Source: Malania oleifera
Lineage: Eukaryota; Streptophyta; Magnoliopsida; Santalales; Ximeniaceae
Direction: 5' to 3'
Assembly: GCF_029873635.1 (NCBI RefSeq)
Contig: NC_080428.1
Span: 61,491,957-61,555,956 of the forward strand
DNA length: 64,000 nt
The notes under the pieces: model-generated
Told to the model about the DNA's origin: nothing
Database searches by the model: none
The model's input: the letters and a program-made list of their open reading frames with translations, nothing else
Translations under genes and position numbers: made by a program
In this document: positions 2,068 to 61,116 of the stretch, piece after piece
Position numbering within the stretch: the stretch's first letter is position 1
Layout of the letters: every line of letters begins with the position of its first letter

Positions 2068-5000
2068 AGAACATGGGAAAGGGCAAAACTTGCAACCACT
2101 TTGGGCCAACTTGGTATGTCCAGCAGTTGAACTCCACATTTTTAGTTTTGTTCCACATCCTTATGATGATCCACTCCACAATCCATATATGATTACTAAG
2201 GAAAGAATATCAATATGAAGATGATGTTACTTAGAAAAATAAATTTTCATATTTGGTTGTATTTGGATATATTCCCAAAACAAATATATGTAGCTTTGTT
2301 TGACTGCCAGTAACAAAAGGAAATCAAATTGCCATCACAATTCATTGCATTTTATTGGGTTGAGAGATGCAGTGGACATCTCCATTTCTTATGGAATATC
2401 TTTAGTTATTGTTCATGATATAGTTAAGCATTAAAGACTGCAAGGATTCCAATTAATGTGTGCATTTTATTTGGAACCGTTTATTGCATACTTTAATAGC
2501 AATTTGTGTGTAAATGGGCTCACATACCACAGGAACTAACATGCAAAATGTCTATAAAACAGTGCAGCAAATTACATCTTATGCTGTTCATCTACTTTTG
2601 TACAGGCAATGAGATTTAAAAAAAAATGGAAATGTCAATTGAAATTTGTATCAATGAGTCATTGAGCTTGGCTTCTTGGTGGCTGTATCATAATAATTTC
2701 ATAACCTAGAATACTAGAGGCTGTTTGGTTTTTTTCATTATGGCAAGTAATTTTGCTTATGGATCTTTGGGCTGTTGCCACTGGTGCATCTGTGATCATC
2801 TTATTGTGGACCACATTAATCATGAATACAGAGGATAAAAACTCTTGCTGAAAATGATGACTTATGAGCATTCCAAACATACTTGCTGTTATTACCCTGA
2901 AAATTTATCTGAAGATATTTATCCAATGCAGTGAAAATTTTTCTGAAGTTACTAATCTGAGACAGCATGCTTTTAGGCCATACTGCAAGTGAAAATTTGT
3001 TCAAATGTGACCCTCTCTCTCTTTATACCCCTCATACTTTAACTTCCTCTTGAAATAGTTGTGGCAACGGATGATGAGAGGATAGCAGAATGTTGTCAAG
3101 GATTTGGAGCTGAGGTGATAATGACATCAGAATCTTGTCGAAATGGTAGGAGCCTTGCATATGCTGCATGATTTTACACTTCATTCTATTTGAATTGACT
3201 TTCGACTGACATTAGTTATCTGATCTTCAGGGACTGAGCGCTGCAATGAGGCAGTCCAAAAGATCAAAAAGAAGTTTGATATTGTTGTCAATATTCAAGG
3301 AGATGAGCCTCTTATTGAACCAGAGGTTATAGATGGGATTGTCAAAGCTCTGCAGGTAATTTGTTTTGTATATCATGTTAATTTCTCTTTAAAAGTTCAT
3401 TCAATATCTTCAAAAGTTTGCTCATATCCATTACTTCCATCATTTCATATGGAGCAACATGAAGCACTGCTTCGCCCTCATTAAATGCTTAATCAGGTGA
3501 AACGAAAAACCTGGTCAATGACCTCAACAACCAGGGGAGGGGGGAGGAACTATTCATATGCCAGGTTAAGATGAATGAACAACATTTTTCAACTGAAATA
3601 CCTGATGGTGGTAACTGCCTAACTGGTACAGTTGCCATTGTGGTGGGAATTTAAACAGTGAGTCATATACCTTTTCTTGTTTGAGATCTGGACCCATGCA
3701 CTGTCTCCATGCAATCTATTGATATAAAGTGAAGTAAAGAGGAACATTTTTTCCCAGCATTATTTTGCCATAATTCTCAGGATCAAATAGAGTTCATAGA
3801 ATGGGTCTGCCTACTGTAGTATTAACTTGATTTTGGAAAAAAATTCTAATAGTATACTAGATGTACAGCTTGTTCTACATTGTTGGCCCCCCAATGCAAC
3901 AGTTTTAAGATTTTAGGTAAAGTGGCAGTTGACATCATACAAGAGCCATGGTTGCCAGGAGGTCCTGGATTCTAGTCTTGTTGCCTGCATTTATGGTCAA
4001 TTTGTTAAAACTATCTTATTCCCCTTAATTTTTTGTTGACTCATGATGAGTGCTATTCATTGCTTGTTTATTTCTTCATGGGCAATCTGGCTGCATGTAT
4101 GGAGTACTGCTGAGGCTTGATATACATTGTTGGCCTGCTACCTTAGAGCTTAAGCTTTTAGGTAATATCAGCAATACTCAACCATCTCCAGCTTGAGCAT
4201 ATTATTTTCTGTTTCAAAGAATATTTTCTGTTTTCTTTTTATTCTGTTCTTCTGTTAGTTTGTTGCCAGAGAATATTTCTGGCTTGCTGCCGTGTATATA
4301 TACAGCTGTGCGAGGACTGTTCATGTATGGAAAACTAATACGATAATTTTACAGTTTATCTCCTTTACTACATTTCTCCTGTTTTTCCATCATGGTATCA
4401 GAGCTTTTTAGGACTCACGTCCATCCTTTCTCAAGGTCTGCATCTGCAGCATGGCTGACTCTCCTGCTGCATCCTCTTCCCATACGCAACCTCCCACTGT
4501 CTCACTTCTTTCTCCCATCAACATGATTACAGTAAAGCTGAATCACAAAAATTACTTGCTGTGGAAGGCACAACTCATGCCCTATCTCAAAGGCCAGAAC
4601 CTATTTGGCTACATTGGTGGCTCTACTGCTCCTCCTCATCCGCTCAGAAAAAACAACACACCATCTCCTGAGTTTCTCGCTTGGCAACAGCAGTATCAAG
4701 CTATCATCAGTGTTCTGATCTCCTCTCTCTCTGAAACATTCATTGCTCACGTTCTCACAGCCACTTCTTCTCAAGAGGTGTGGACAAATCCAATGCTAGT
4801 ATTATGCAAGTTCAACTTCAGCTCACCACTCTCAAGAAGGGTTCAGAATCCATTATAGAATACTATCGTTGTGCAAAGCTCCTTCAGGGCTCCCTTGCCA
4901 TGACTGGTAAAATCATTCCAGCCTCTAATTTCATTACATTTCTCCTGGCTGGATTAGGCTCCGACTACAACTCACTTGTTACGTCCATCACTACTCATGT

Positions 5001-8000
5001 GGATCTGCTCACTCCTGCGCAAGTATATAGCCATCTCCTGACTCATGAGGCACGATTTAACCATCAAACCTCCACACTGACTGCATCTCCCGAATTCTCT
5101 GCTAATTCTACTCAAACCAAATCTGTCTCCAGCTTTTCTCGTGGCCGTGGTTCCTCACACGTCAGAGGTAATTTCAGAGGTCGTGGTGGTCGTGGCAGGC
5201 ATGGTGGTCGCCATTTCTCCTCCTCTCTAGCTCCATTTAATCGGCCTATTTGTCAGGTCTGCCATAAAAGAGGCCATACTACCATCACATGCTACCACAG
5301 ATTTGATTTCAGCTACCAATTTCCCCCTCCACCTTCCCTCTTAGCACACCTCACCTCAGGACCTCATTTTCAACAGCCCTCTTCCACGTTTGCAAACTCC
5401 AACTGGTATCCTGATTCCATAGCCACCCATCACTTCACTCATGATTTTTCTAATCTCTCGATTAACCCATCTAAGTATAAGGGTGATGAGCAAGTTCGTG
5501 TCGATGATGGCTCATCTCTTCCAATTCACCATGTTGGCAGCTCCACCATCCGGTCCCCCAATGGCAGTATTCTTCTCTCTAAACTCTATCATGTTCCATC
5601 AATTTCTAAGAATTTAATTTTTGTCAGGAAACTATGTGAAGATAACTCTGTATATTTTGAGTTTCATTCTTCTTTTTTTTGTGTGAAGGATTCCCAAACC
5701 CAGAGAGTTCTTCTTCAAGGTCCTACTAAGGATGGCATGTCCGTGTTTCCACATCCATCTCCTCAAGCTTATGTTGGTGAACGTGTTTCTCCTGTTCAGT
5801 GGCATAATCAGCTAGGTCATCCTTCCATGCTCCTGGTTCAAAAAATTATTTCCCAGATGTCTCTGCCCACCAAATCCTCTTCGTCCCTTGAACTATGTCC
5901 CTCGTGTTGCAAGGCCAAACTTCATCAACTACCGTATGGCAGCTTCTCTCTCCGTTCAACTTTCCCTGTTTCTCATATTTTCTCGGATGTCTGGGGTCCT
6001 GCACCGATACTTTCTCGTGGTGGTTTTTGCTATTATGTTTCCTTTGTTGATGACCACAGTCGGTTTACTTGGATTTTCCCTTTAAAATGTAAATCTGATG
6101 TGGTTTTTGTTTTTTTATTTTTCAAACAACATGTAAAAACTCTTTTTAATACAAAAATTCGTTCCTTACAATCCGATTGGGGTGGTGAATTTTGATCTCT
6201 TAATAAGGTGTTAAATTCTTTTGGTATTTGTCATCGCATTTCATGCCCCCATGCTCACTCACAAAATGGTTCAGTTGAACGCAAACATAGACACATTGTG
6301 GAAACAAGTCTTGTTCTCCTTGCTCATTCATCTTTGCCACACTCTTACTGGTCTGATGCTCTTGCTATTGCTGTCTTCCTAATAAATTGCCTCCCTACTC
6401 CCACCTTAAATAACAAGTCCCCATTTGAAACCTTGTTTCACCACACTCCCGATTACATGTTTTTAAAAACATTTGGCTGCCAATGTTGGCCCAATCTTCG
6501 ACCTTATAACAATCACAAAATAAAGTTTCGCTCCCTTCCTTGTGTATTCCTTGGCATGGCTACTTGTGCTTCCATATCCCTACTGCTCGTATGTACATAT
6601 CTAGGGATGTCTTATTTGATGAGACTGTTTTTCCATTCTCTAACCCCTGTGCAGGCTCTCTTCCACATTCCTCAGCCTAACTCACTCCCTCTAATTCCTC
6701 ATTACCCCCCATTTCTTTGCCCCGGCCCACGAGTCCTGTGTCCAATACCCGTTCATTACCTCGGCCCAACCCATCTATACCTCATGACTCCCTAGCCCAA
6801 CACCCGTCTATCATACCCAACTCCTCTCCTCGTTCTAGCCCACTCACTCCCAAATCTTGGGCTTCTCTCGGCTCCTCCTTGCCGTCTTCATCTTCTCGGC
6901 ATTCTTCTCCTTCCCTTTCTGCAATCCCTTCCACATCAACACACCCTATGCAAACGCAAGCCAAGGCAAACATTTCTTGCCCTAAGCTCCAAACAAATGG
7001 CACCATTTCTTGGCCTCCGCCTCGCGCCCACACCACCTCAGTTGCTGTTCCAGAGGAGCTCTCTTCAGTAACTCATGCCTCCAAGTTTCCCGAATGGAGG
7101 CATGCGATGCAGCAAGAGTTTGATGCTCTGATGTCCACCAATACTTGGTCCCTTGTTCCTCCTGCTTCAAATTAAAATGTTGTTGGTTGCCGCTGGATCT
7201 TCAAGACAAAGCATATGTCTAATGGTTCCATTGAGCGATGAAAAGCATGCCTGGTCGCTAAGGGTTACAGTCAGCTAGAGGGCTTCGACTACACTGAAAT
7301 TTTTAGTCCTGTGGTCAAGCCTACTACAATCAAGTTAGTCATCTCCATTGCAGTTTCCTCTTTCTAGACGATTCATCAATTGGATGTTCAGAATGCTTTT
7401 TTACATGGTTGTAACGACCTGCTATTTATTTTCCTGTTCTGATTTTTTTTTTTTTATACTGTAAGATTTATAATGCTCTGATACCTACTAAATTTAATCA
7501 AACCATCAACCTAAGCAGCGAGAAGCAAAATCTATATAAACACAATCAAGAAAATATACAATACCAGAGTGTTAAATGTGTCCCCAAAATATACATATAT
7601 GATTGTTTCCCAAAATACCCTCAACTGGGCTAGGGCTATACATAAATACTCTAAAAAATACTCACTCTACTGACAGGGCAGTACTGAGGCCCTTCTATCT
7701 GCGAGCCTAATCTGCTCGCCTACTTGGATCACCTGAAAAATGTTGAAGTAATGGGATGAGACGACGCTCAGTAAGACGAAATATGCTATTGCTAGTGTGT
7801 GGCAAATGAGTTACAATACTTTAAAGATCTGTTTCTAAATGATCATGCATAACTAAATATGAGAATACAAGTACAAATAACATATACAACCACCACCTGT
7901 ACCCATGTTGTTTAACATATCTGTTTTTATAGGTTCTCCATTCATAATACTTCTACTATACATAAGTACCCCCACTGTTACTGTAAAATTGTATATACAT

Positions 8001-11000
8001 TTAATAGCTGAAAACTTCCCTGTGGATAACTGTATGTCATGATTTAACCCCTCATGGCGGGATCTACCCTTGTTGGCCGATCAAGATAAACCACTATACT
8101 CCATCAGTCTGATCAGCCCTCCTCAACCCATATCTGATGGGGAGTTTGTCCACTCGTGGGCTCTATGATCAACTTTCATACCACGTATTATCTGAATAGG
8201 TGGTTGCACTCTATACTGTATGTAGCAATGGTATCGTGCTATGTAAACTGTATCTGTATGGTCCATCAAGGTCTGATACTATATAATTCATTTCTATATA
8301 CAACTATCTATTTTACCATGATTCTGTAATAACTGTATAAATCATGACACTGTGATAAACTATATTTGTATCAACTGTATTTCTGAAATGAACTGTAAAA
8401 TTGTATGTCATGGTACTGTAAACTATATCTGTATCAACTATATAATCATGGTATTTTGTAATTACTATAAAATATATTCACTGTTTGTATATTCTGTAAA
8501 ACATAATTCTGAAAAATACTGTAAAGCATGTCTCTGTACTATATCTATATTCTCAAGCCGCACAGTAATTTAAAACATATTATACATAATGGATAAACTG
8601 TATAAATTTATGTTGTGAATAATAATCTGGTAAAAACATATAGTTCATACTGAAATTATACTAGTATTGCCTAGCATAGCATATTTCCCTTACCTGATTT
8701 CTACTAAAATCCCCCTACCGTGATGGGTCCTACACCCGCAGGGTTCTCCACTCAACACCCTGAAAACTATATATGTTAGAACAAAATATTACTATTTCTA
8801 CGTCTATAGTATTTCCTACAACTGCTGGAAAGTCAAATTCTAACAAAAAGGTCTTACCCTAAATCTGGGATGAAATCCAACTTCGTCCCACCAACGATCC
8901 GCTCCGACAAACTTAGGGAGAACTTCCCCAGGAGCGTCATGGTGGTCTCAGATCGTCGATCCTGCAAACGACGGGCCGAAATCTAAGAGAGATGGAAGTG
9001 GAGCCATAGGAGAGAGAGGGATTGAATTTCTGTGAATTTTCTGCGTAAAAATCCAATTTTCAGCTATTTATAGAGTCGGATTCGTCAACAAGACATGTCA
9101 CTTCGTCGACGAGTTCTGTAGAAAGTTCGTCGACGAACCTACACCCTCGTCGACAAATGCACCCTAGTCAACGAATTTCAGACTTCCAAAAATCCTCTCT
9201 CGGTATATTCTCGTCGAAGAAACTTGTCTTCGTCGACGAGGCCCTCTTGTACCCTCGTCGACAAATCCCCTGTGTTCATCGACGAGAACCTGATAAATTC
9301 TCTTGGGTCATTACATCCCAAAGTGTTTCCATTTCTATTTCGCATTCGTTGACGACGTCGGCTGCCTCCTTCTGTTACTGTTTCCATTTCTATCCCTCTT
9401 TATTATTTAAATACCCTTTTTCTTTGGGTCGTTACAATGGTACTCTTGATGAGCATGTTTTCATGTCTCAACCTCCTAGCTTTATACATCCACAATTTCC
9501 ACACTATGTTTGCAAACTCAATCGAGCTCTTTATGGCCTTAAACAAGCTCCCCATGCCTAGTGTGCACGGCTCAGCTCTCGTCTATTGGAACTGGGATTT
9601 TTTGTTTCAAAATCAGATGCTTCCCTATTTATTTATCGTCATCAGTCAATGCTTGTGTACTTCCTTGTGTATGTTGATGACATTGTGACTACTGGCTCAA
9701 GCCCGAACGTGATTTCTCACTTCATATCTGTTCTGAGCAATGATTTTTTGATTAAAGATCTGGGAGATTTACATTACTTTTTGGGCCTTGAATGTCATCG
9801 CAACTCTACTGGTCTCATGCTTTCTCAACGAAAATATATTTTAGATTTGCTGCAAAAGACAAACATGTTAAACTGCAAGCTAGTCAGCAGTCCAATGTCC
9901 TCCTCCACTAAGCTAACTGCCTTTGACTCCTCTCTTGTGACTGACTCTACATTATATCGTAGTGTCGGGGCAGCTTGCAGTATTTACTTTTCACCAGGCC
10001 ATACCTAGCCTTCTCAGTTAACCGTGTTTGTCAATATATGCATGCTCCATGTCTATCTCATTGGCAGAGTGTTAAGCGCCTACTACGCTATTTAAAGCAT
10101 ACTATTCATTATGGCTTACTTCTGCAACCTTCTCTCACTCCTTATCTGGCGGCCTACACCGATGCCGACTGGGCAGGTTGTTCCGATGACAGAAAATCCA
10201 CTGGGGGTTACTGTGTCTTTTATGGAAACAACTTAGTTTCATGGAGCTCAAATAAACAATCTACTATAGCCAGATCAAGTACTGAGGCCGAATACAAGGC
10301 TCTTGCTCTTGCAACCTGTGAGTTACTATGGTTACAATCTCTCTTATCTGAATTGGGTATTTTCCTCTCCACCCCTCCAACTCTTTATTGTGACAATTTG
10401 GGAGCCACTTATCTGTCCATGAACCCTGTGATGCACTCTCGCACCAAACATGTCGATGTGGACTATCATTTTGTTTGCGATCGAATTCAGGCCAAAGCTC
10501 TTCAGGTTTCTTTTCTTTCAAGCAAGGATCAACTAGCTGATATTTTCACCAAACCATTATCTTCTTCCAGATTTGCTTCTCTCAGATCAAGCCTCACTGT
10601 TCTTCCAGACCTGCTTGGCTCGCCAGGGCGTATCAGCAATACTCAACCATCTCCAGCTTGAGCATATTATTTTCGGTTTCAAAGAATAATTTTTGTTTTC
10701 ATTTTATTCTGTTCTTCTGTTAGTTTGTTGCCAGAGAATATTTCTGGCTTGCTGCCGTGTATATATACAGCTGTGCGAGGACTGTTCATGTATGGAAAAC
10801 TAATACAATAATTTTACAGTTTATCTTCTTTACTGCATTTCTCCTGTTTTTCTATCAAGGTAAGATGGTGTTCCAGCAAATTCTCAATCCAAATATAATC
10901 AATAAAATAGGGTCTACCATTTTTTCTTAGTAACAGTATTCCAATGTTAATGTGATGAATGAGGGAGGGCATCTAATACACAGGGATTGCTTGGAACTTA

Positions 11001-15715: not shown

Positions 15716-18700
15716 TGATTGACAAGTTATTTTCACCACATTAAATTGCAAAACAACAGCCATAACTTTTCATTAACTTCTAATATAATGAGTGAAATAC
15801 TCACAGAATTCCAAATAGAGAACCTGTAAGAGAGTTCAGGAACCAAGGGAAAGTACATAGCTATACTTCCTAAACATGGATAAAAATTTATAATTTGAGC
15901 AAGCCTGTTTAAACATGATGAGCAGTATTCCTTCATGTAAGCTGAAAGAAATATGACTAATTAAAGATTTAAGTGTGGCACTTTAACATGTCCAACATGG
16001 AAACTCCTCAAATCCACATGCATATGTGCGTAAATAAATTTGTTACAGTTTTTTGTATTTTACTTAATGAGTGAAGAGCAAACTAGCCAAAAAGGTAACT
16101 AAGTTAATAAAGATTTCGATCCAGGAGGTAGATTCAAGATCAAAGTCCATACAAAATTCTTTTTCCATATATTTGTGAGAAAAAATATTTCTAAATAGTT
16201 CTTCAAGTGATAGGAGCAAGCTTCAAACACTAATGGGTACAGGGTTTTGTCAGGGTCCATGCAACAGGCCAGAAATTCTTACAGAAGCTTTTATGAACAA
16301 TGATGTTTTATCAAGGTAAGCGAGAGCATCTACAGCTCATTTCCCTTGTTATGTACATTAATAAAACAGACTAGCTAAAACCATAGAAAATAGAAACCTG
16401 AGGCCAATGTCTTTATTCTAAGGCACAACCAGTTAACACAGTGCGATCATTATTTTTTCTCCAGTAAACAAAAAAGAGAAATGGGTTTTTGGCCATGAGA
16501 ATTGGGGATATTAGATAGAAAGGGGCCACACCAACAAACCTGAACTCTACTTTCTTCATTCCAAGAGCTAAGGCCATGCCTCACAAGAGTCACCTTCTTT
16601 GGTGAAGACAATAATTTATGGGTAAGCGATGTTGCTGCTCTTTCGAAGTCATATGCACCACCAGTTATAGAAGCATCATTTCCAAGTTTCTCTGTTGTAG
16701 ATCAAGAGTCAAAATCATCCTCAAGCTTTATATAATCACATTGTTGTGAAAATAACGCCTCTTCAAACAATGCACAACGGAATAAACATTGTGAAGGATC
16801 AAATAATATCATATGCAACAATCTAAAATGGTGAAATAGAGAATTATTCCACAACCATAGCAATATAAAGAAAGTAAAGATAAAACAACAACACCAAGAA
16901 TTACGTGATTCGGCAAAACCTACATCCACGGGAGCAATCGGCAAGAGATTTCACTATGAAGATCAAAGATTACACATTACAATGATCTTCTCTCCTTCTC
17001 TCACCCTCTCTCATTCTCTTATAAGTCAAAATATGCCCAGAAGAACATATATAACAAGCCCTCAAAGACTTCCCTACGAATCCCCAACCGTCAAAACATT
17101 TACATTCAAAATTTAAATATTTTCTCGCAGCCCAAAAGCACTCATTGACGAGAACAGGGCACTTGTCGACGAGACAGAGAAGACCACTTGTCAATTAGTC
17201 TATCCACTCGTTGACGAATCTTTAAACTCTGAGATTTTCTGACTCTCGGTATCTCCTCGTCAATGAGCACTCTGTGCTCGTCGACAAGTCTATGCTGCTG
17301 CCCTACACCATAAACCCCCGAAGTATAAGAGTCACACCATAAATAACAATCTCCACCTTAACGATTATATGCCCCTTAGGAGAACCCTATCTATCTGCTC
17401 CACCTTGAACTCGGAACGCTCGGTTGGGACAGCCTTCCTTCTAGCACTTGGAGACATGTACCAAGTCTAAGCAACGCTGCTTGAACTTGCTGATGGCAGT
17501 TTCAGCTTCTACCATCAACCCTGATACAGTTGTACATGCAACACTCGAAAACTTCACCCTAGACTTCCAACAAGACCTTTCCACAATAGAAAACACAAAA
17601 ACTGTTGCAAGCCTTATATCACCAAAGCCCTATGTATAATCTTCAACAAAACTAACAACTAACAGTTCACTTTATTGCCTGCTGAAACACCCCATTGCAC
17701 AATCATGGGGAACCTTTGACATATCCCAAACATTACAGCCCGTCCTTGGGTACCGTACGGTACATTCCACATTGATTCTCCATAGAACCCCCTTAAGACA
17801 GCAAACAAAGTCGGTTCCATCCATAAAGCCACATTGAGATAACACCAATCTTCCTGTAGCCCTGTCCACAAAACCACTCTAAGATAACACTAATCTCCCT
17901 ACAGTTTTGTCCATGCGAATCAGTAAACAAAGACCCACCTTGGCCGTACCCAACACATTCATGTCAACTTTTCAACAGAGTTTCCAACTGATCAGCCTCA
18001 GTCAAAGCATTTCCAACCAATAACATGTTATTCACACACAACATATACATCACTCCACGCATCCTATCACCCTCTTCCAAACTAGAAGCTTCACCAACTC
18101 ACCTGAGTAGTGATCTAATAGTGCACATCGGCCCACCATGATTCTACTAGTCTCTCGAGCTCAAACTCCCTGCAATATGAACTACGTCATCTCTGCTTTG
18201 AGTCTGTTGCTCCACCTACATCACATACCCATTCATACTGTGATACTGTTGACCCGAGATAGAACTCCCCGCATTTTTGTCTTGAATCCCTAACTCCACC
18301 TAAATAATATGATTGCTGCTGCCGCAGTTTTCTGGCATTTGTTTCTCTTCTTTTACTTGAGTACGCTGCCCCATGACTTTATCACCAAAAATCATGTCCT
18401 CTATCACCACTTTGTTTGCCATAGGATCACCCAACTTGCACCCACCTTTCTTATACCCTAGAAAAGTGTACCGTCCGAACATAACACCAAGCCTATATCC
18501 TCCATCACTAGAATAGTGCACCAGTGGACATCCACTCACAACCGAGTAGTTTACCGCAAAACCTGTCTACAATTTACCTGCAACTTTTCCATCTATCAAT
18601 ACCTTTGGCGATCGGTCACATGAGAAATACGTCATACTCACTAACTTCACCAAGAAGTACTCTACAAGCCCTGCTCACAAAACTTCTTGAACGAAACCAG

Positions 18701-21467
18701 CGTACTCAACCCCAATATTTGACTTGAGAATCTCTCTCTCGGTTTGGTTCTCCACCTCAGCCACTGCATGAAATACACCAAGACCCTTCGTGATAAACCC
18801 ACGAAATACATATGTCTATTCCCTGATGCTATCATCATTAGTTCCCAAATATTTGAATGCATGTAGTCACGCATATGCTTTAACCGCATATGCCACAAGA
18901 TACCCGAGTCAGATTCAACAGTTGCAACCCCACCAACAATCGTAACACCTTGCAATGCATAGATATTTCCTACTACTTTTTCCCTTTTCATCATTATCAA
19001 GTTACCTTCACACACTTTTATTTTTCCACATTCAGACTCGTAATAATATCCATTATAGTCTAAAGTTCCCAATGAAATATCATTCTTCCTTAAACCCGAT
19101 TCATGCTTTACATCACATATGGTTCTTACAACACCATCATACATTTTGATTTTGACATTTCCAATAACAAACATTTTGCATGAAATATCATTTTTCATCA
19201 AAATATAATCAGTATAAACTGACCTGTAGATGTCAAACCATTTTCTACAGCATCTAGTATCTAAGATCCAAGAATCACCCGTGAGGCACTCCGAACCCGA
19301 TGAAACACATAGCATATCTCTATCACTACACTCTAAGTCTTCCTCCACTACACTTGCAGATTTTGACAAACCCTTAGACATATATCGCCATTCCCCTTTT
19401 CACCAAACTAATGTCGGAGAATTCTCATCCATGACGTGATACAACACGTCCTTAGCCAAACAAAAACAAATGATTGCTCCCAATTCATTCCAAGTCGTTG
19501 CATCCATGCTATCCGATTGAATTTTGTATAAACCTTTCACCAAACCTTGTTACGTACACTAAAAGATATTTCAATTCAGAGGCCATACAACACGCTCTAA
19601 TACCAATTGTTGTGAAAATAATGCCTCTTCAAACAATGCACAGCGGAATAAACATTGTAAAGGATCAAACAATACCATATGCAACAATCTAAAATGGTTA
19701 AATACATAATTATTCCACAATCATAGCAGTATAAAGAAAGTAAAGATAAGACAACGACACCAAGAATTACGTGGTTCGGCAAAGCCTACATCCACGGGAG
19801 CAATCGGTAAGAGATTTCACTATGAAGATCAAAAATTACACACTACAATGATCTTCTCTCCTTCTCTCACCCTCTCTCATTCTCTTACATGTCAAAATAT
19901 GCCTAGTAGAACATATATAACAAGCCCTCAGAGACTTCCCTCCCAATCCCCAACCGTCACAACATTTACATTCAAAATTCAAATATTTTCTCGCAATCCA
20001 GAAGCACTCGTCAATGAGAACAGGGCACTCGTCGACGAGTCTTTAAACTTTGAGATTTTCTGACTCTTGGTATCTCCTCACATCCCTATGTTTTTCTCTC
20101 TTTGTTTATAAACCCCCGAAGTATAAGAGTCACACCATAAACAACACACATACTACAAAATTATTGAAAAAACACACGGGTCCCTGCACATATGTACATG
20201 CATGTGTGCACAGGAAGAGGGGGAAGTGGAGCAGACAGACGAGATTAACATTACAACTAGAAAAAAGGAATAGAATATAGAACAAAATGAGCAAGTGACT
20301 TCCCAAAGCGCTTCAGTCAAAATATTCAATGCACCAATGGTAGTAATGTGTGTAAAATCACCAAACCTGAATACGCTATGGATTCAGAAACCTCCCAAAC
20401 CTCTTCCCCTCCACCAAAAAACAAAAACAAGAAAAAAAAAACAAAACAAAACAAAAGTATTTAAAATCACTCCTTCCATTTGCTTCATTTCTGCTCCTTT
20501 CCCCTCACATAATGTGAATAATTGCAGTAGTAAAAGATTAAGATATCATTTTTTAAGGCCAATTTTGCACACATTACACGGAAAGAAAGTGATTGAGATA
20601 GCAATCTTCTAAAATTTTTATCATCAATAGAAGTGAGGACCAACTTTAAAACCTAATAAGATATGTGAAATCAGCTACTATTCTAAGTGCAGTTCTAAAT
20701 GATCTCATGTGGGTTGATTCAATTATGCACAACCCAGAATAGGATTATACACGAAAACAGCAAAAAGAACAACAGAAAATCCCTACAAAAATCCCCATTC
20801 TACTTAAAAAAAATATCACAGCCTGCTCTAGAATTTTCAACCCATAACTACAAAACATATAACTCTCATATGGAAAAACTCAAACACTCGAGCAGCAATT
20901 GTGGAACATAGCGCCTGCTCCTGGGCTCAAATCACTTTAAGCCTCGCACCCTATACGCGAGAACTTCCTCCACTTACGAGCTTACGGCACTTCTACATAT
21001 GCGCCACATCTCAACGCGTTTCTTGAGAAGTTTAAAAAAAAAAAAAATGGAATCAACAAATACGAATCATTACTGTAACGCATAACTTGCATTTAAAGCC
21101 GCAAAAATCTGTCAGCCACATGGGGCAGTCTGAAATTCACAGACCCCTCTTTCCGGTTTAGTGATTTTTATTTTTTGGCGACCGTCAAGAAATTTCAAAT
21201 GTGTTTTTGTTATTTCTGGAGATCGAAACATACCCAAATAGAAAAAATGCAAGCACGTCACAAATTCAATCCAACAGGACACAGCAAACCCACAATTTCA
21301 TCTATTCGTAAAGGATTACCGGTGGCCAGAGGAACGTCTGAACCGGAAGAATAGCATCGAACTCGAGGGGCCGCCGGTGAATGAGTCTGCAGCTCGTGAA
21401 GCTTTCTTGAAGGACCAGCGGAGGGCCAAAACAGAGAGGTCGTGACCGCAAGAGTTTCACAAGTCAT
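13591..21467 (-). CDS. Plastid histidine phosphatase, 2-carboxy-D-arabinitol-1-phosphatase-like
   Basis: Seven minus-strand exons with GT/AG borders and continuous frame: 21320-21467 (ATG at 21465-21467), 16540-16691, 15142-15261, 14966-15065, 14442-14581, 14261-14340 and 13591-13717 (stop TGA). They encode 288 aa. The first ~45 residues are rich in Ser, Thr, Pro and Arg with few acidic residues, like a chloroplast transit peptide. The catalytic LVRHGLSSWNEESRVQGSS carries the phosphorylated-His RHG motif. The second signature histidine is in FLVVTHKSILRALI, and QCFASPISRAK is the family's substrate-arginine block. The family includes plant CA1P phosphatase, which removes phosphate from the nocturnal Rubisco inhibitor. 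Substrate is inferred from resemblance only. I am unsure whether homologues extend further at the C-terminus. Intron 1 carries a copia element and intron 6 a SINE. Confidence 0.9.
13788..13973 (-). mobile_element. Au-like SINE in intron 6 of the phosphatase gene
   Basis: Read on the minus strand, it starts with a tRNA-derived head (GGGAGCCGTGGTGTGATG, then a B-box-like GGTTCAAGACG). The body includes AAAACAGCCTCTTG and ATAGACCCATCATGGTCCG and it ends CAGGCCGCCTTT before an AT tail, all typical of plant Au SINEs as I remember them. It is flanked by an imperfect 18-19 bp target duplication (13769-13787 and 13974-13991) with one substitution and one 1-bp indel. Confidence 0.85.
15668..15711. repeat. 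(TA)n microsatellite in phosphatase intron 2
   Basis: About 22 uninterrupted TA units within the 1.28-kb intron 15262-16539. Confidence 0.9.
16742..17348 (-). repeat. Left (3') LTR of the intron-1 copia element
   Basis: Carries three palindrome pairs starting at 17142/17163, 17188/17208 and 17257/17278 (steps 21, 20 and 21 bp; pair-to-pair 46 and 69 bp). Reading on the minus strand, a TTATATATG box lies about 90 bp downstream of the array. A purine-rich AAGGTGGAGA just outside the LTR is the likely polypurine tract. Confidence 0.88.
17440..19400 (-). pseudogene. Decayed copia pol in the intron-1 element
   Basis: The best-preserved stretch (18662-19381) contains a protease-like WILDTRCCRKW, where the active site should read D(S/T)G, then IYALQGVTIVGG and the pre-integrase LWHMRLKHM. 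Further along the minus strand, 18300-18539 holds the integrase C-terminal block FLGYKKGGCKLGDPMANKVV. Near 18020-18075 the RT active-site region reads MLCVNNMLLVGN in place of the usual YVDDML, so both catalytic aspartates are lost. Remaining RT/RNase H sequence toward 17660 is barely recognisable. It is certainly inactive. Confidence 0.8.
19592..19607 (-). other. Primer-binding site of the intron-1 copia element
   Basis: On the minus strand the sequence right after the 5' LTR reads ATTGGTATTAGAGCG, one substitution from the standard initiator-tRNA-Met PBS core TGGTATCAGAGC. Confidence 0.75.
19608..20146 (-). repeat. Right (5') LTR of the intron-1 copia element
   Basis: Homologous to 16742-17348 but 68 bp shorter. 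Only one palindrome pair is kept (20008 and 20029, 21 bp apart). The second pair is deleted and the third is replaced by unrelated sequence. Confidence 0.88.
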
Positions 21468-23060: not shown

Positions 23061-23065
23061 GGTAT

Positions 23066-24547
23066 TGTTAGACCAAGTGGTTAAGGGTCTTTCATTCCAA
23101 CTATGTTTCGATGACAACAACTCATTAGCAGTTCTTTAAGGCTACTAACCTCTTTCTCTAGTCCTGTTCAGTTGCACAGAATGGCACCAAAGCAAGCAAG
23201 TTTCAAATCAACCAAAAGCAACTCGTGACATGACTAAAAGTTCAGCCACTCAAATCAAAGCACTCATGGACTCTACATAGTATGCAAGTGTTCTAAAGAT
23301 TGAGTGTGAGAGTTAGATAAATTATCTTTGTAAATCCCTTATATATGGAGTAACTCAAAGCAAGAAATGGGCATATCACACACACACAACAAGACAAGTA
23401 AAACCACTTAAGATGTCTAAAAACCCTCAAAACATGTTTTACTAAATTTAAGACATCTTACAATGAATTAGGGATCATTCATCATAAATATATATAAGGA
23501 CCTTTTTACTTAGAACTTAAAAGGATTTTTTTTAAAAGTAGAAAGAGGAGCCTTGTCGACGAACATAGGGCTTCGTCGACGAGTATAACATATGCCCTCG
23601 TCGACGAACACAGGATTCTCGTCGATGAGAATATACTGAGAGTGCCTAAAAGTTCAGAGCACCCCTCGTCGACGAATACAGGGGACTCGGCGACGAGGTA
23701 TGTGCAAACTTCGTCGACGAACACAGGGTTCTCGTCGACGAAAAGAAACTGAGACTTGTATGAATTCAAAACCAAAAACTCGTCGACAAACACAGGGCTT
23801 CGTCGACAAATGTATTGAAGAGCTTGTCGACGAAGGTGAGACCTCGTCGACGAATGTCGGGCTGCAAGCTTCATTAAATGCAGGAGAACGACTGGTTTTG
23901 CTCTTGTCTTACATCAATAAATGCCTAACGGCTCTCCAATGCCCAGCTCACCCATTTGGTGTTTAAATAAGGGTTATGCATTTACTTCAAACTAAGAAAG
24001 CTCATTTAGTTATTGAAATTATTTATTGTGCATTCACTCTAGGGTTTCTTTGTGCAACTCACTTGCCCTCTTCCTCTTGTTCTTGTCTTACTCCATTGAA
24101 AAAGAGGATAGTGTGTGAGGATTTGGTTGTGATACTTAGCTCAAGAGGAGCACTTAATATTGTATCTACCCATCATCAACTACTTGTATAGAAAGGCCCT
24201 TTGTGAGCCATTGTAGGATATCTCTAAGTGAGTACCTTGTAAAAGCTCTTTGTGAGCAACTGTGTGTAGTGACTTCTCTGCCCGAAGAGGAGGATCGTAT
24301 AGTGGATTTTGGGAATCCTTGAGTTGCTCTCAAGGCATGGACGTAGGCGGGGTGCCGAACCACGTTAATATCACCGTGTTAAGCTTCTCTTCTCTCTTTT
24401 ATTTTGCTCATTCATTGTCATTTGCTTCACTTTTGTATTGTGATATAATACACTTGTTCTTGGCAAGATTTTTGTGTTTGTAGAAAATTTCCATATCCGA
24501 GAAAAACGTCTATTCACCCCCCCTCTAGATGCTCAACCGGGCCATTA
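23066..24547 (+). mobile_element. Solo LTR, copia-like, 1.48 kb
   Basis: Starts TGTTAGACCAAGTGG and is flanked by the direct repeat GGTAT (23061-23065 and 24548-24552). The end region contains CTATTCACCCCCCCTC, similar to the ends of large plant copia LTRs, but the last bases are CATTA rather than the canonical CA, so the right end may be mutated. A TATA-like TTTAAATAA lies at about 23962. No coding region is inside. The 300-bp palindrome array is in U3. Confidence 0.75.
23552..23853. repeat. Array of twelve TCGTCGACGA palindromes in six pairs
   Basis: Sites start at 23552/23572, 23597/23618, 23665/23686, 23710/23731, 23780/23800 and 23824/23844. Within-pair steps are 20 or 21 bp, usually with spacer ACACAGGG plus 2-3 bp. 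Pair-to-pair steps alternate 45, 68, 45, 70 and 44 bp, giving a higher-order unit of about 114 bp. The array ends about 110 bp before the TATA-like box. Confidence 0.92.
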
Positions 24548-25115
24548 GGTATGTTTTTAAAAATTAAAATTTTAAAAATAGGATGAGCTCATAGAAATTA
24601 GATACACCAATAATTTGTTTTAGAGGCCGAGCCTCATTCAATTATAAACGTTCTATCTACAAATATAAAGTCTACATTTTCAAAACATAGAAAAAATCCT
24701 TTATGCTCTTTGGGAGTGATTGCTTATTCCGTATTGCTCATCATTGTGTGCTTGCATTGCATGTTCTGTGATTGTTTCGAGTTTTAGTGAGGGCTTCCGT
24801 TGCGCACTTGTACCAACAACAAATCTAAGGGGAAACTTAAAAAGAGCCTTTAGTCCATAATAAAATAGGTTTACAGCTAGCTCAATTGATCTAAGGGCAA
24901 TATCATTATCATTTTGACAAACAAATTTAAAATTAGAAAATTTTATATTAGTATTAAATTAAGATTGCCTTACAAAATTTGGCTTTCTTCAATAGACACT
25001 AAATTGATATCATAAAGGGCATGAATGTAGAAACCCGAAAAATTAAATTAATGAAAGTAATAAAAGAAAATAAATGAAAGAGAAAGGAAAAAGAAAAAGA
25101 GGAATTAGCAGGGAT

Positions 25116-25309
25116 TCGTTGATGAACTCAGGGTCTTCGTCGATGAATGTCCCTATAAAACTTGTCGACGAAGTACACGTATCTTGTCAACAAGAAGATA
25201 CTGAGAGTCTGGGAATTTCAAGAAATTTCAAATTCTTCAACTAACGAACCTCCTCGTTGACGAAGTGTCTTCATTGGTTCATCGACGAATCACTTGAACT
25301 TGTCAACAA
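25116..25309. repeat. TCGTCGACGA-type palindrome array ending at a TATA box
   Basis: Sites start at 25116/25137, 25162/25184, 25254/25279 and 25300. Steps are 21, 22, 25 and 21 bp; the first two pairs are 46 bp apart. The last site ends 9 bp before TATAAATA. Most sites differ from the consensus by C-to-T or G-to-A changes at CpG. Confidence 0.85.
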
Positions 25310-25454: not shown

Positions 25455-26679
25455 ATTCTGACTTCGTTATAGGCCGAATTAACGATCGGGAATTGCCACG
25501 AGGTTTGTGGGGAGATTCTCTACAACTTAGCCGGAGCGGATTGTTGGTATGGAGTACTTGGGCACCACTCCAAAGTCAAGGTAAGTAAGTTATTTTAGGA
25601 TTAAAGTATTTATTTGGAGTATTTGGAACCTAGGAAGTGTTAAATGAGAATTGTTCTGGGGGATGAGTTGAGTTATCTAGGAAAAATGTGATTTTTAGGA
25701 TTTTGAGTTTCGAACGCCGCAGGCATAGGATTTGGGTGTTTTCAAACCTATCAGTAAGTTAGGTAAGGGGAATAAATTATAATAGTTATTTTGAGAATTA
25801 TTTGTTGAATTAATATGTAAAAATGTGAGTATGGTATTTTGCTTGAAATTATTATGATACGAATATCAGATAAAATTGTGTGGCATATGAGTAATACTGA
25901 ATTGTGATGTTTGGAATATGAAATATGATTATAGAAATGTTTTCTATGATAAATGGAGGAAATTTGAGAATATTATATGTTTTATTGAGAAATGTGGAAA
26001 TTCGCAAAATAAGATATATACTATTATGAAAATGAAATGTGTATTGAAAAATGGGAAAGAAACAGAAAATGAGGAGAATATTGAAATGTGATATATACCA
26101 TTATGAAATGAGATATGAATACTGAAAATGTGAATATTGTAATGTAAATACTGCAATGAGAATGTTGAAATGTGAATACTAAGATGCGAATATGAAAATG
26201 TGAATATTGTAATGTGAATACTGCAATGTAAATGTGAAAATGTGAATACTAGAAATGTGAATATTGCAATGAAAATACTGTAATGTGAATACTAAAATGA
26301 GAATATGAAAATGTGAATATTGCAATGTGAATGTTGTAATATGAATACTAAAATGTGAATATGAAATGTGAATGATGAAATGTGGAAATGAGAACCCTGA
26401 TGGACGATTGTTGATATTGAGCATGATACCTTTGCCAGTAAGGTGTTAGTGCAACCATACGGTCTCATGGTGAGTGTGGTGTGGACGGTTGATTGAGCCA
26501 GTGAGAAGGGTAGTTTTGCCCCCTAGGTCTGGACAAGGGTTATGGTAGGCCAATCGTACTACAGACGCATGGATGAATTTCCTATTTTGATCTAACCGGG
26601 TAGGCCAACCGTGGTTAGATTCAGCCTTCGAGCCGCACAACCTCTACCATGGGGGGAAGCATGGCTTTGAGAGAATAAA

Positions 26680-38786: not shown

Positions 38787-40935
38787 TGTTAGAATTGATG
38801 TATGTCCAAGAGAGGGGTGAATTGGATATTCAAAAGTTTTCTCCTAGGTCAATTCAAATTTCACAAACAGTATTACACAAACCTAGGGTCTATCTAAAAA
38901 CATACCAATTCAACAGATAAATTACTGAGTAGATATTTAAACAAATACGCTCTTCTCAGTAATTTACAATCATTCAAAGTGCATATGTAAAAGAATCAGA
39001 GCATTAAATAATAACATATAGGTGTGAAAAATAAATTGTGAAAATATAAAGTGCACATATGATATATTATCAAGGTTTGGCCAATATTGTCTACATCCCC
39101 GCCTCAAGCTCATGAGCAAGAAGATTCACTAAATTTGCTCATTTGCGGGTGGAGCGATACCGTTTACAACCTCCCTCTCGTTACTGGACAAGGGAATACC
39201 TCGGGTCAGATTAATAGGACTGACCCCAACCTTTACAACACCTTACTAGGATGGTGCACCTAGTTCTCTTAACCAGGTCTGAACCAGTCTGGTGCTCTCC
39301 TAACTATGTCAGAGCAATTCGAGACTATTCAAAAGGCTAGTCTCCCTCTTGCAACCACCCGTCAGGAATACAACAGATATTCAAATAATTTTTGTGTACA
39401 AGGAAATGCTTCTTACACTAAGCAGATATATACCAATACAGTCAATCTAATCAATGCACCCACAGATGATGTGATCTAAAGCTTAAGTAAGATTTCGTTA
39501 ACCAATGTGTTAATCTCAACAATATGTGTATCAATATGTACATGTGAGAGTGAGACCTTTGACTTCAAAATAATATTTTTTGCAATATGAATATTCAAAT
39601 AGTCTCTACAACTCTAAGCAAATATCACAATGGTATTTTTCAAGTATCAAGCACAATGGATATTAGGGTTTAAGTTTGCTAAAAATATTTTTATCAAAAC
39701 ACAAAGTAAGCTTATGAAACTTGCAATGAGGATGTAAGTTCTTAAGCAGATATAGAGTTTTCCCAAACAATATTTATGAACGAAAACACAATAGGAAAAC
39801 TTTAGCTTACTCTCAAAAAATCAATACACAATCAAATGCAAGTATGGGAGAGTTTTAACTCGTGAGTACTATGAGATTTGCTCACGAAAATGCACACTCA
39901 ACCTAGCTTCGAAGTGCAAACAATATGCAAGTGACGAAGGTGAGGAAATATACTATTTCTAAAAAATATAATCAAAAGTATATGAGAAAGAGTTTTAAAC
40001 AATATGCTTTGTAAAAATTTGGAGTATGAAAGATTTAGCAACAAAAGATTTTGAGAGGAAAATTTTGCTAATCAAAATGCTAATCTTGTGCTAATTAGGA
40101 CAAATGAGGGAGTATATATAGGATTCCCACAAAATATGACTGTTGGGGATATCAAGGTATTTTGAAAATTGTTTAATTATGTTTTGCAAAAATTAACACA
40201 GTTTAACTTCGGTAAAAATTTCGCCAATCCGAGAGGTTCGGTCAACCATTTTCAAGGTTTGGTCGACCATATTGCTAAGTTTGGTCGACTGTGGCAATTT
40301 TGAACTACGAAAATGGTCGACCGTCTCAAGGCGATTTTGAACTCCTTCGTGGGTTCAGTCAACCATGGCAAAGACCGATTGACCATTCAATAGGTTCAGT
40401 CGACCAAGATAATTTTGAACTACAAGGTTTGGTCAGCCAAGTAGTTGGGGTGACAGTCCTTTATGGTTCAGTTGACCGAGGTAGGTGTGTTCAATTTAGA
40501 ACGGTCGATCGAAGGAAGTCAAAATGTTGACTTCTGACCAACTCAGTTGACCAAGCCAATTTGTGCATGGTGGATTCGATCGACCAAGCCAAGTCAAACT
40601 TTGACTTCGGGCTTTGAGTGTGTTCGGTCGACCAAGGGCTATAACACATAAACTGGTTGGTCGACTGAGGCTTTTAATTAAATCTAAAAACACAATGTCG
40701 GTCGACTAAAGGCTTTGCTTTTGCCCCGATTTTGACCCTAACCAATTTAAACCTTTTTGTATGAATTTTAGCTTTTACAAAAAAAGGTTTTGAGTTTAGG
40801 TTAGGTCCCCTAAGGTTAGGTTTGGATCCATACGGTCAGACTATGATCATTTTGAGCTTACATCCACATCATACATGTCATGCATTTATTACAGACCAAA
40901 TTAAAAACTGAAATGCATTGACAATCAAAATAACA
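38787..40935 (-). mobile_element. 5' LTR of a SIRE-like copia element (minus strand)
   Basis: In plus coordinates it begins TGTTAGAATTGATG and ends AAAATAACA. On its own strand it therefore runs TGTT...AACA and ends with a CACCCCTCTCTTGG block like the LTR at 27645-30316. The distal half, 40237-40710, is filled with GTCGAC-core sites. The 40935 edge is inferred from the TG/CA rule. Confidence 0.7.
40240..40640. repeat. (G/A)GTCGACC palindrome array in a SIRE-like LTR
   Basis: Sites at 40240, 40261 and 40283 (steps 21 and 22), 40315, then 40357, 40377 and 40398 (steps 20 and 21), plus scattered sites near 40431, 40470, 40502, 40550, 40579 and 40626. Many are exact GGTCGACC; others are one C-to-T or G-to-A change away. 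Confidence 0.85.

Positions 40936-47814: not shown

Positions 47815-61116
<13,302 letters not shown>

Follow-up and report, generated by a model that had tools for sequence, protein, structure and literature searches.

A palindrome-based cassette in the U3 of Malania oleifera LTR retrotransposons, apparently shared between Ty1/copia and Ty3/gypsy elements

LTR retrotransposons of Malania oleifera carry a compact U3 cassette upstream of TATA, in which groups of four TCGTCGACGA-like palindromes (quads) are joined by an ATACYGAGAG box in the order quad, box, quad, with three quads in the LTR described first; on balance this cassette is probably an enhancer that has moved between superfamilies. 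The starting point was a window on contig 12, the whole stretch of 64,000 nucleotides analysed here, for which a reading made from the letters without database searches (the sequence-only reading) had drawn attention to the palindromes.

Results

Twelve palindromes form three quads in the U3 of a solo LTR

The sequence-only reading had placed twelve palindromes, as six pairs, in an LTR, and both points were borne out: the positions matched, each TCGTCGACGA-like palindrome has at most one mismatch, and the array (window 23553-23853) lies in the U3 of a solo Ty1/copia LTR with the 5-bp target duplication GGTAT on both sides (Table 1). Within the six pairs the spacings are, in order, 20, 21, 21, 21, 20 and 20 bp, and the pairs recur at 45, 68, 45, 69 and 44 bp, the fourth value having been given earlier as 70. 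The proposed super-unit of 114 bp was found as a repeat at 113-114 bp, to which we add the quad as a level of organisation above the pair: the six pairs make three quads of about P-20-P-24-P-20-P, whose inner steps are, in turn, 20/25/21, 21/24/21 and 20/24/20; the steps from one quad to the next are 47 and 48 bp. The helical phasing that had been proposed holds within pairs (about 20.5 bp, or 1.95 turns at 10.5 bp per turn) but not across the whole array; since neither the 24-25 bp step (2.33 turns) nor the 47-48 bp step is a whole number of turns, the pairs do not all lie on one face of the helix. The TATA-like box noted earlier at about 110 bp beyond the array is TTTAAATA, at about 108 bp. 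What the earlier reading missed is the ATACYGAGAG box between quads and the presence of the array in other LTRs.

The window holds 43 sites with at most two mismatches, compared with a mean of 5.26 (sd 2.19, largest 12) in 100 shuffles. A coding repeat was considered and dropped: a reading frame on the minus strand (23509-23913) stays open across the array, yet the spacers vary by 1 bp between copies, and such changes in length would break a frame.

Elsewhere in the window, coding-like stretches (translated letters) are found at 47819-48000 and 60416-60928, which resemble the two ends of a gene for the second-largest subunit of RNA polymerase II. There is also a perfect tandem duplication with a 154-bp unit at 51897-52206 (100% matches), and about 22 copies of a 14-bp AT-rich unit at 26076-26384 (71% matches).

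Table 1. Positions of the palindrome arrays, boxes and carrier elements (window coordinates unless a sampled stretch is named)
Feature	Position	Strand	Remarks
Copia-1 solo LTR (Ty1/copia, apparently Sirevirus-like), array carrier	23066..24547	+	GGTAT at 23061-23065 and 24548-24552; ends aligned with 19 other copies
Quad 1	23553..23628	+	Palindromes at 23553, 23573, 23598, 23619
Box ATACTGAGAG	23633..23642	+	Starts 14 bp past the start of palindrome 4
Quad 2	23666..23741	+	Palindromes at 23666, 23687, 23711, 23732
Box-like AAACTGAGAC	23746..23755	+	+14 from the palindrome ending quad 2; two mismatches to the box
Quad 3	23780..23853	+	Palindromes at 23780, 23800, 23824, 23844
TATA-like TTTAAATA	23962..23969	+	Past the array end
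PolyC stretch	24512..24523	+	Near the LTR 3′ end, about 24 bp from it; as in the Sirevirus integrase signal
Copia-2 element, truncated	16742..20146	-	LTRs 16742-17348 and 19608-20146; CACAT at 16737-16741 and 20147-20151; Pol_BBD inside
Cassette remnant with box, one copia-2 LTR	17142..17287	-	From sequence
Palindrome pair (21 bp), other copia-2 LTR	20008..20038	-	From sequence
Cassette in LTR piece with gypsy-type flanks	9082..9355	-	Inside copia element 4166-10862; TATA 9 bp past the last palindrome
Cassette in LTR piece with gypsy-type flanks	25116..25299	+	Followed by TATAAATA
Second array type	40239-40708	-	Steps near 32-33 and 38-42 bp
Second array type, other copies	L009 3071-3383; L014 3377-3686; L021 3563-3833		

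Palindrome spacing falls into two narrow classes genome-wide

We counted sites across the 1.494-Gb genome irrespective of location, within LTRs or not. The exact TCGTCGACGA word occurs 132,361 times and the same word reversed 1,383 times, a conservative control because the reversed word lacks CpG and CpG is depleted in the genome. Exact pairs at 10-40 bp number 20,630, and all but a small remainder fall into two classes, with 13,519 at 19-21 bp and 6,374 at 24-25 bp (19,893 together); the reversed control gave no pair in either class or in the range as a whole. The other 26 spacings share the remaining 737, an approximate figure obtained by subtraction (a start may be counted once only). The sharp peak at 19-21 bp agrees with the one at 20-22 bp that the sequence-only reading had set as its test; the second peak, at 24-25 bp, was absent from its prediction.

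A box at a fixed offset is part of the cassette

The internal anatomy was examined in 36 arrays of at least four palindromes, taken from the window and 40 further stretches (L009-L048). The sample is non-random: 30 stretches surround exact palindrome matches near the start of contig 1 (first 0.72 Mb), and the other 10 are arbitrary places on contigs 2-9, two of which held an array of at least four palindromes. Groups of fewer than four palindromes, and window matches beyond 40000 (with a coding-like stretch near 47819), are left out of the array counts. Of 252 steps between neighbouring palindromes in these arrays, 126 measure 19-22 bp, 65 measure 24-25 bp and 40 measure 44-51 bp. The number of quads is commonly two in gypsy-type arrays and three in copia-1.

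A box near ATACCGAGAG (at most two mismatches) is present in 32 of the 36 arrays; 200 letter shuffles average 5.4 and never exceed 12. In 28 of these 32 it stands at +14 from the start of the preceding palindrome, which as a rule is the one that ends a quad, and these 28 include copia-1, copia-2 and gypsy-type arrays. The same offset is seen genome-wide, where the palindrome, 4 bp and the ATACYGAGAG box form 4,298 exact joint matches against none for the reversed form; the box alone gives 25,907 matches against 3,642 reversed.

In L069, which is almost a perfect copy, eight exact palindromes follow one another at steps near 20/24/20, 46 and 20/24/20; each of the four pair spacers contains AYACAGGG, the box is in place and TATAAATA comes soon past the last palindrome. 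On this pattern the base unit is the pair of the earlier reading, P-AYACAGGGNN-P. The spacers bear on the suggestion that the array is a structural signal, its palindromes folding as hairpins, in RNA or DNA, that serve dimerisation, packaging or strand transfer. Each palindrome can indeed pair with its neighbour, and the genomic RNA includes U3 at its 3′ end; however, in several arrays the stretches that would form the loops retain their own sequence (AYACAGGG), and hairpins leave the box offset and the proximity of TATA unexplained. A search of the window for structured RNA brought no Rfam family to its gathering score, and we regard this explanation as very improbable.

TATA starts 9 bp past the last palindrome in 12 of the 36 arrays, a distance frequent in gypsy-type ones, and within 30 bp in 24, and TATA[AT]A is absent within 160 bp in 10. 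Of the 17 gypsy-type arrays that have the slot between the last two palindromes, 13 contain an ACGT core there; in this last spacer before TATA it is often TGACGTGGC or TGACGTGTC (for example in L010, L012, L016 and L040). We take this core to be a site of the bZIP type and, as such, a further pointer to activation.

The palindromes vary mainly at their CpGs

Among 288 palindromes, detected with up to three mismatches and a CG-derived centre, a procedure that favours conserved sites, 276 of 336 mismatches are CpG transitions, and each of the four A/T positions is kept in 275-287 of the 288. In 20 copia-1 copies, A/T sites have a diversity of 0.017 within palindromes and 0.037 within spacers, against 0.061 upstream and 0.088 downstream; since these copies were selected as best matches to the array, only the contrast between palindromes and spacers, a descriptive one, is fair. 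Over all sites the order is reversed (0.181 in palindromes against 0.112 in spacers) because of CpG decay. As the sample is enriched for exact palindromes and the copia-1 copies are best matches, conservation is overstated to some degree.

The CpG content raises the question of silencing. Observed/expected CpG reaches 1.73 in the array (G+C 0.49), compared with 0.35 for the remainder of the LTR and 0.50 for the window, so that the array might be a landing pad whose dense CpGs attract methylation and heterochromatin, or whose palindromes bind a host repressor, and the excess of CpG transitions is as expected if the sites are methylated. Methylation of resident copies nevertheless leaves unexplained why elements would keep and share a costly CpG-dense array by TATA, and the exact box offset and the conservation of A/T positions outside CpG point to a use for the element; we consider silencing an unlikely explanation.

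The same A/T positions bear on whether the array is a passive, minisatellite-like repeat that expanded by chance in LTRs and has no function. The 45-bp pair unit and 114-bp super-unit do resemble tandem duplications, and copy number varies. The spacers, however, have diverged (mean slot similarity of copia-1 to gypsy is 0.24-0.56 outside the linker) while the palindromes have kept their A/T positions, and the box offset is exact, which makes a functionless repeat quite improbable.

The carriers are assigned to two superfamilies

The window's solo LTR belongs to a family that we call copia-1. Among the best 40 of 1,686 candidate matches (window included), all but one (39) span 315 or more of the 331 bases in the query. 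Seven pairs on the same strand are separated by 8.4-8.6 kb, as expected of LTR pairs. A relative on contig 8 (L068) has Pol_BBD, SH3_retrovirus and RVT_2 domains in 4 kb of internal region between array-carrying LTRs (RVT_2 E 7e-75), and by this copia-type reverse transcriptase we class copia-1 as Ty1/copia. Its 5′ LTR junction, which in Sireviruses reads CA / A(T or G)TGG / TATCAGAGC, has AGTGG in the six copies in view, followed by exact TATCAGAGC in four of them, and its polypurine tract is AGGGGGAG in four of five copies with the 3′ LTR junction in view, then AA/TG, where the Sirevirus form is AT/TG. Sireviruses are marked, too, by multiple polypurine tracts in the linker, a large gag and an optional ENV. 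A polyC-rich integrase signal lies about 21 bp from the LTR end in Sireviruses (PMC2829016), and by its 5′ junction and polyC stretch copia-1 appears Sirevirus-like. Three copia-1 LTR pairs differ by K2P distances of 0.082-0.096 over LTR columns only, equivalent to 3.2-3.7 million years at the Malania rate of PMC6377399. A second lineage, the truncated copia-2 element in the window, carries remnants in both LTRs (Table 1).

The main carrier lies outside Ty1/copia. In an element found on contig 1 (L013/L014), the LTRs measure about 2.05 kb and carry the array close to the start of U3. This element shows the target site duplication TTTGA and, between the LTR pair, Retrotrans_gag, Ty3_capsid and RT_RNaseH domains; by the Ty3-type gag and RT-RNaseH we class it as Ty3/gypsy, presumably of Del/Tekay. 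Gypsy-type arrays form the majority of those sampled, the superfamily of most being given by flank similarity to this one dissected element: by their downstream flanks, 23 other sampled arrays group with the window's two gypsy-type references and a few more join through other members, while L009, L017, L029 and L046 are unplaced by downstream flank, L029 being put near copia-1 by eye only. One of the two references sits within a copia element that has short LTRs of its own (4166-4397 and 10631-10862, 96% alike). Abundant clades reported for Malania include Del (6.99%), Sire (3.77%) and Tork (1.16%), which is in keeping with these carriers (PMC6377399); the terms 'palindrom' and 'tandem repeat' are absent from that article's main text.

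The cassette is homologous where the flanks are not

At E 0.001, neither the upstream nor the downstream flanks of the window's copia-1 and copia-2 LTRs matched those of gypsy type. When downstream flanks were clustered at E 1e-6, copia-1 did fall into the gypsy component, but the sole link was an AT-rich stretch of a copia-1 relative (L042) against a gypsy-type flank (L023), and we discounted it as homology for that reason. In contrast, the box-bearing linker slot has a mean similarity to its gypsy counterpart of 0.46 in copia-1 (three arrays, one placed by eye) and 0.53 in copia-2, against at most 0.09 when paired with other slots. The linker is the longest slot, and because much of this contrast is one of length, the exact box offset is the stronger evidence. 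We conclude from these comparisons that the cassette is one homologous unit in three lineages, one Ty3/gypsy and two Ty1/copia, and hence in two superfamilies that are only very remotely related. Since this unit sits in LTRs with unrelated flanks, it would have moved between the superfamilies; for the direction and route of transfer we rely on inference.

No earlier report of a cassette common to both superfamilies was found in the open-access literature, where, among the papers listed for the exact palindrome or for GTCGACCA together with retrotransposon and LTR, none dealt with an LTR module as judged by title or opening of the abstract. No U3 exchange between superfamilies was seen in the accessible part of PMC3601003.

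Relation to Sirevirus RM boxes and other repeated motifs

Short repeated, stress-responsive U3 sites drive LTR transcription in Tnt1 and ONSEN; they differ from the cassette in being few, of other sequences and confined to single families. A closer parallel is provided by the RM boxes of Sireviruses, which are palindromic and CpG-rich, number at least eight per element and precede TATA in the LTR's upper half (Bousios et al. 2010, BMC Genomics 11:89, PMC2829016). The earlier statement that no described plant LTR module of this form was known is therefore not supported. Like RM boxes, the present array has a palindromic motif in high copy (12 in the window LTR), the character of a CpG island and a TATA a short distance beyond it (at 108 bp in the window LTR and at 9 bp in 12 of the 36 sampled arrays), and the Vitis RM box CGGTCGACCG shares the GTCGAC core with TCGTCGACGA. 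Unlike them, TCGTCGACGA lacks the core CGG-CCG signature, and the cassette has fixed quads and the ATACYGAGAG box and occurs also in Ty3/gypsy and in copia-2, a copia without the polyC signal, whereas RM boxes were called Sirevirus-specific among the Ty1/copia elements compared in PMC2829016. The cassette is the same sort of thing as the RM boxes and works like one, but because TCGTCGACGA lacks the signature, as does the Tnd-1 box of that study, and is carried mainly by gypsy elements in our sample, we do not file it as one. PMC2829016 could name neither a factor nor a function for RM boxes.

A second type of array in the genome, YGGTCGACCR, equals the published Vitis RM box (PMC2829016). It has 116,989 exact sites against 1,649 for the reversed word and sits upstream of TATA in Sirevirus-like LTRs, with Sirevirus-like junctions nearby (a PBS junction at window 38774, polyC in L009 and L014, and a polypurine tract in L021). 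A CCGAGAG box common to both array types was considered but is not claimed, being inverted relative to transcription in the second type and present with at most one mismatch in only two of its four arrays.

A dense array of one short motif in non-coding transposon DNA is also known from VANDAL DNA transposons, in which the targets of VANC proteins, such as YAGTATTAY for VANC21, evolve by tandem repeat formation (PMC5735166). By analogy, a protein might bind the repeated palindromes and strip methylation from the element. The VANDAL motif is non-palindromic, however, and VANC is encoded by the DNA transposon that it targets, where here a single such protein would need to act in trans on two superfamilies; the array, moreover, adjoins TATA instead of spreading over non-coding regions. 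An anti-silencing platform is accordingly quite unlikely.

Discussion

The enhancer interpretation starts from the location of the cassette, its spacing, the box offset, the low variation at A/T positions and the homology across lineages, all of which are observed. A twofold-symmetric, and so dimeric, nuclear factor would bind each palindrome, and two dimer complexes about two DNA turns apart would co-operate. A separate second factor would read the box, and the assembly would raise initiation at the neighbouring TATA, which may give the element an advantage. The cooperative platform for a dimeric protein suggested by the sequence-only reading fits the U3 location, the tight genome-wide spacing and the place upstream of TATA, without the helical phasing of the whole array that it had also envisaged. 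The arrangement in copia-1 counts against an enhancer, its TATA being 108 bp away and non-adjacent.

Our search for a plant factor that binds TCGTCGACGA found none known. Proteins of the CBF/DREB group recognise RYCGAC-type cores. We did not adopt them as readers of GTCGAC: two sites with this core in RGL3 reportedly fail to recruit Arabidopsis CBF3 (PMC5209670).

Taking the enhancer interpretation further, we see about an even chance that the two superfamilies share a single portable promoter cassette of quads and ATACYGAGAG box, handed on between them, and that a single host factor reading GTCGAC-core palindromes drove the amplification of otherwise unrelated elements. If so, RM boxes would be exchangeable control parts and not a Sirevirus trait. 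With more than 130,000 exact palindromes, defined spacing classes and several element backgrounds, the Malania genome lends itself to direct binding, methylation and reporter tests. If our reading is right, the cis-regulatory cassettes of LTR retrotransposons can cross the divide between Ty1/copia and Ty3/gypsy, and much of a genome's repeat load could be under the control of one host factor.
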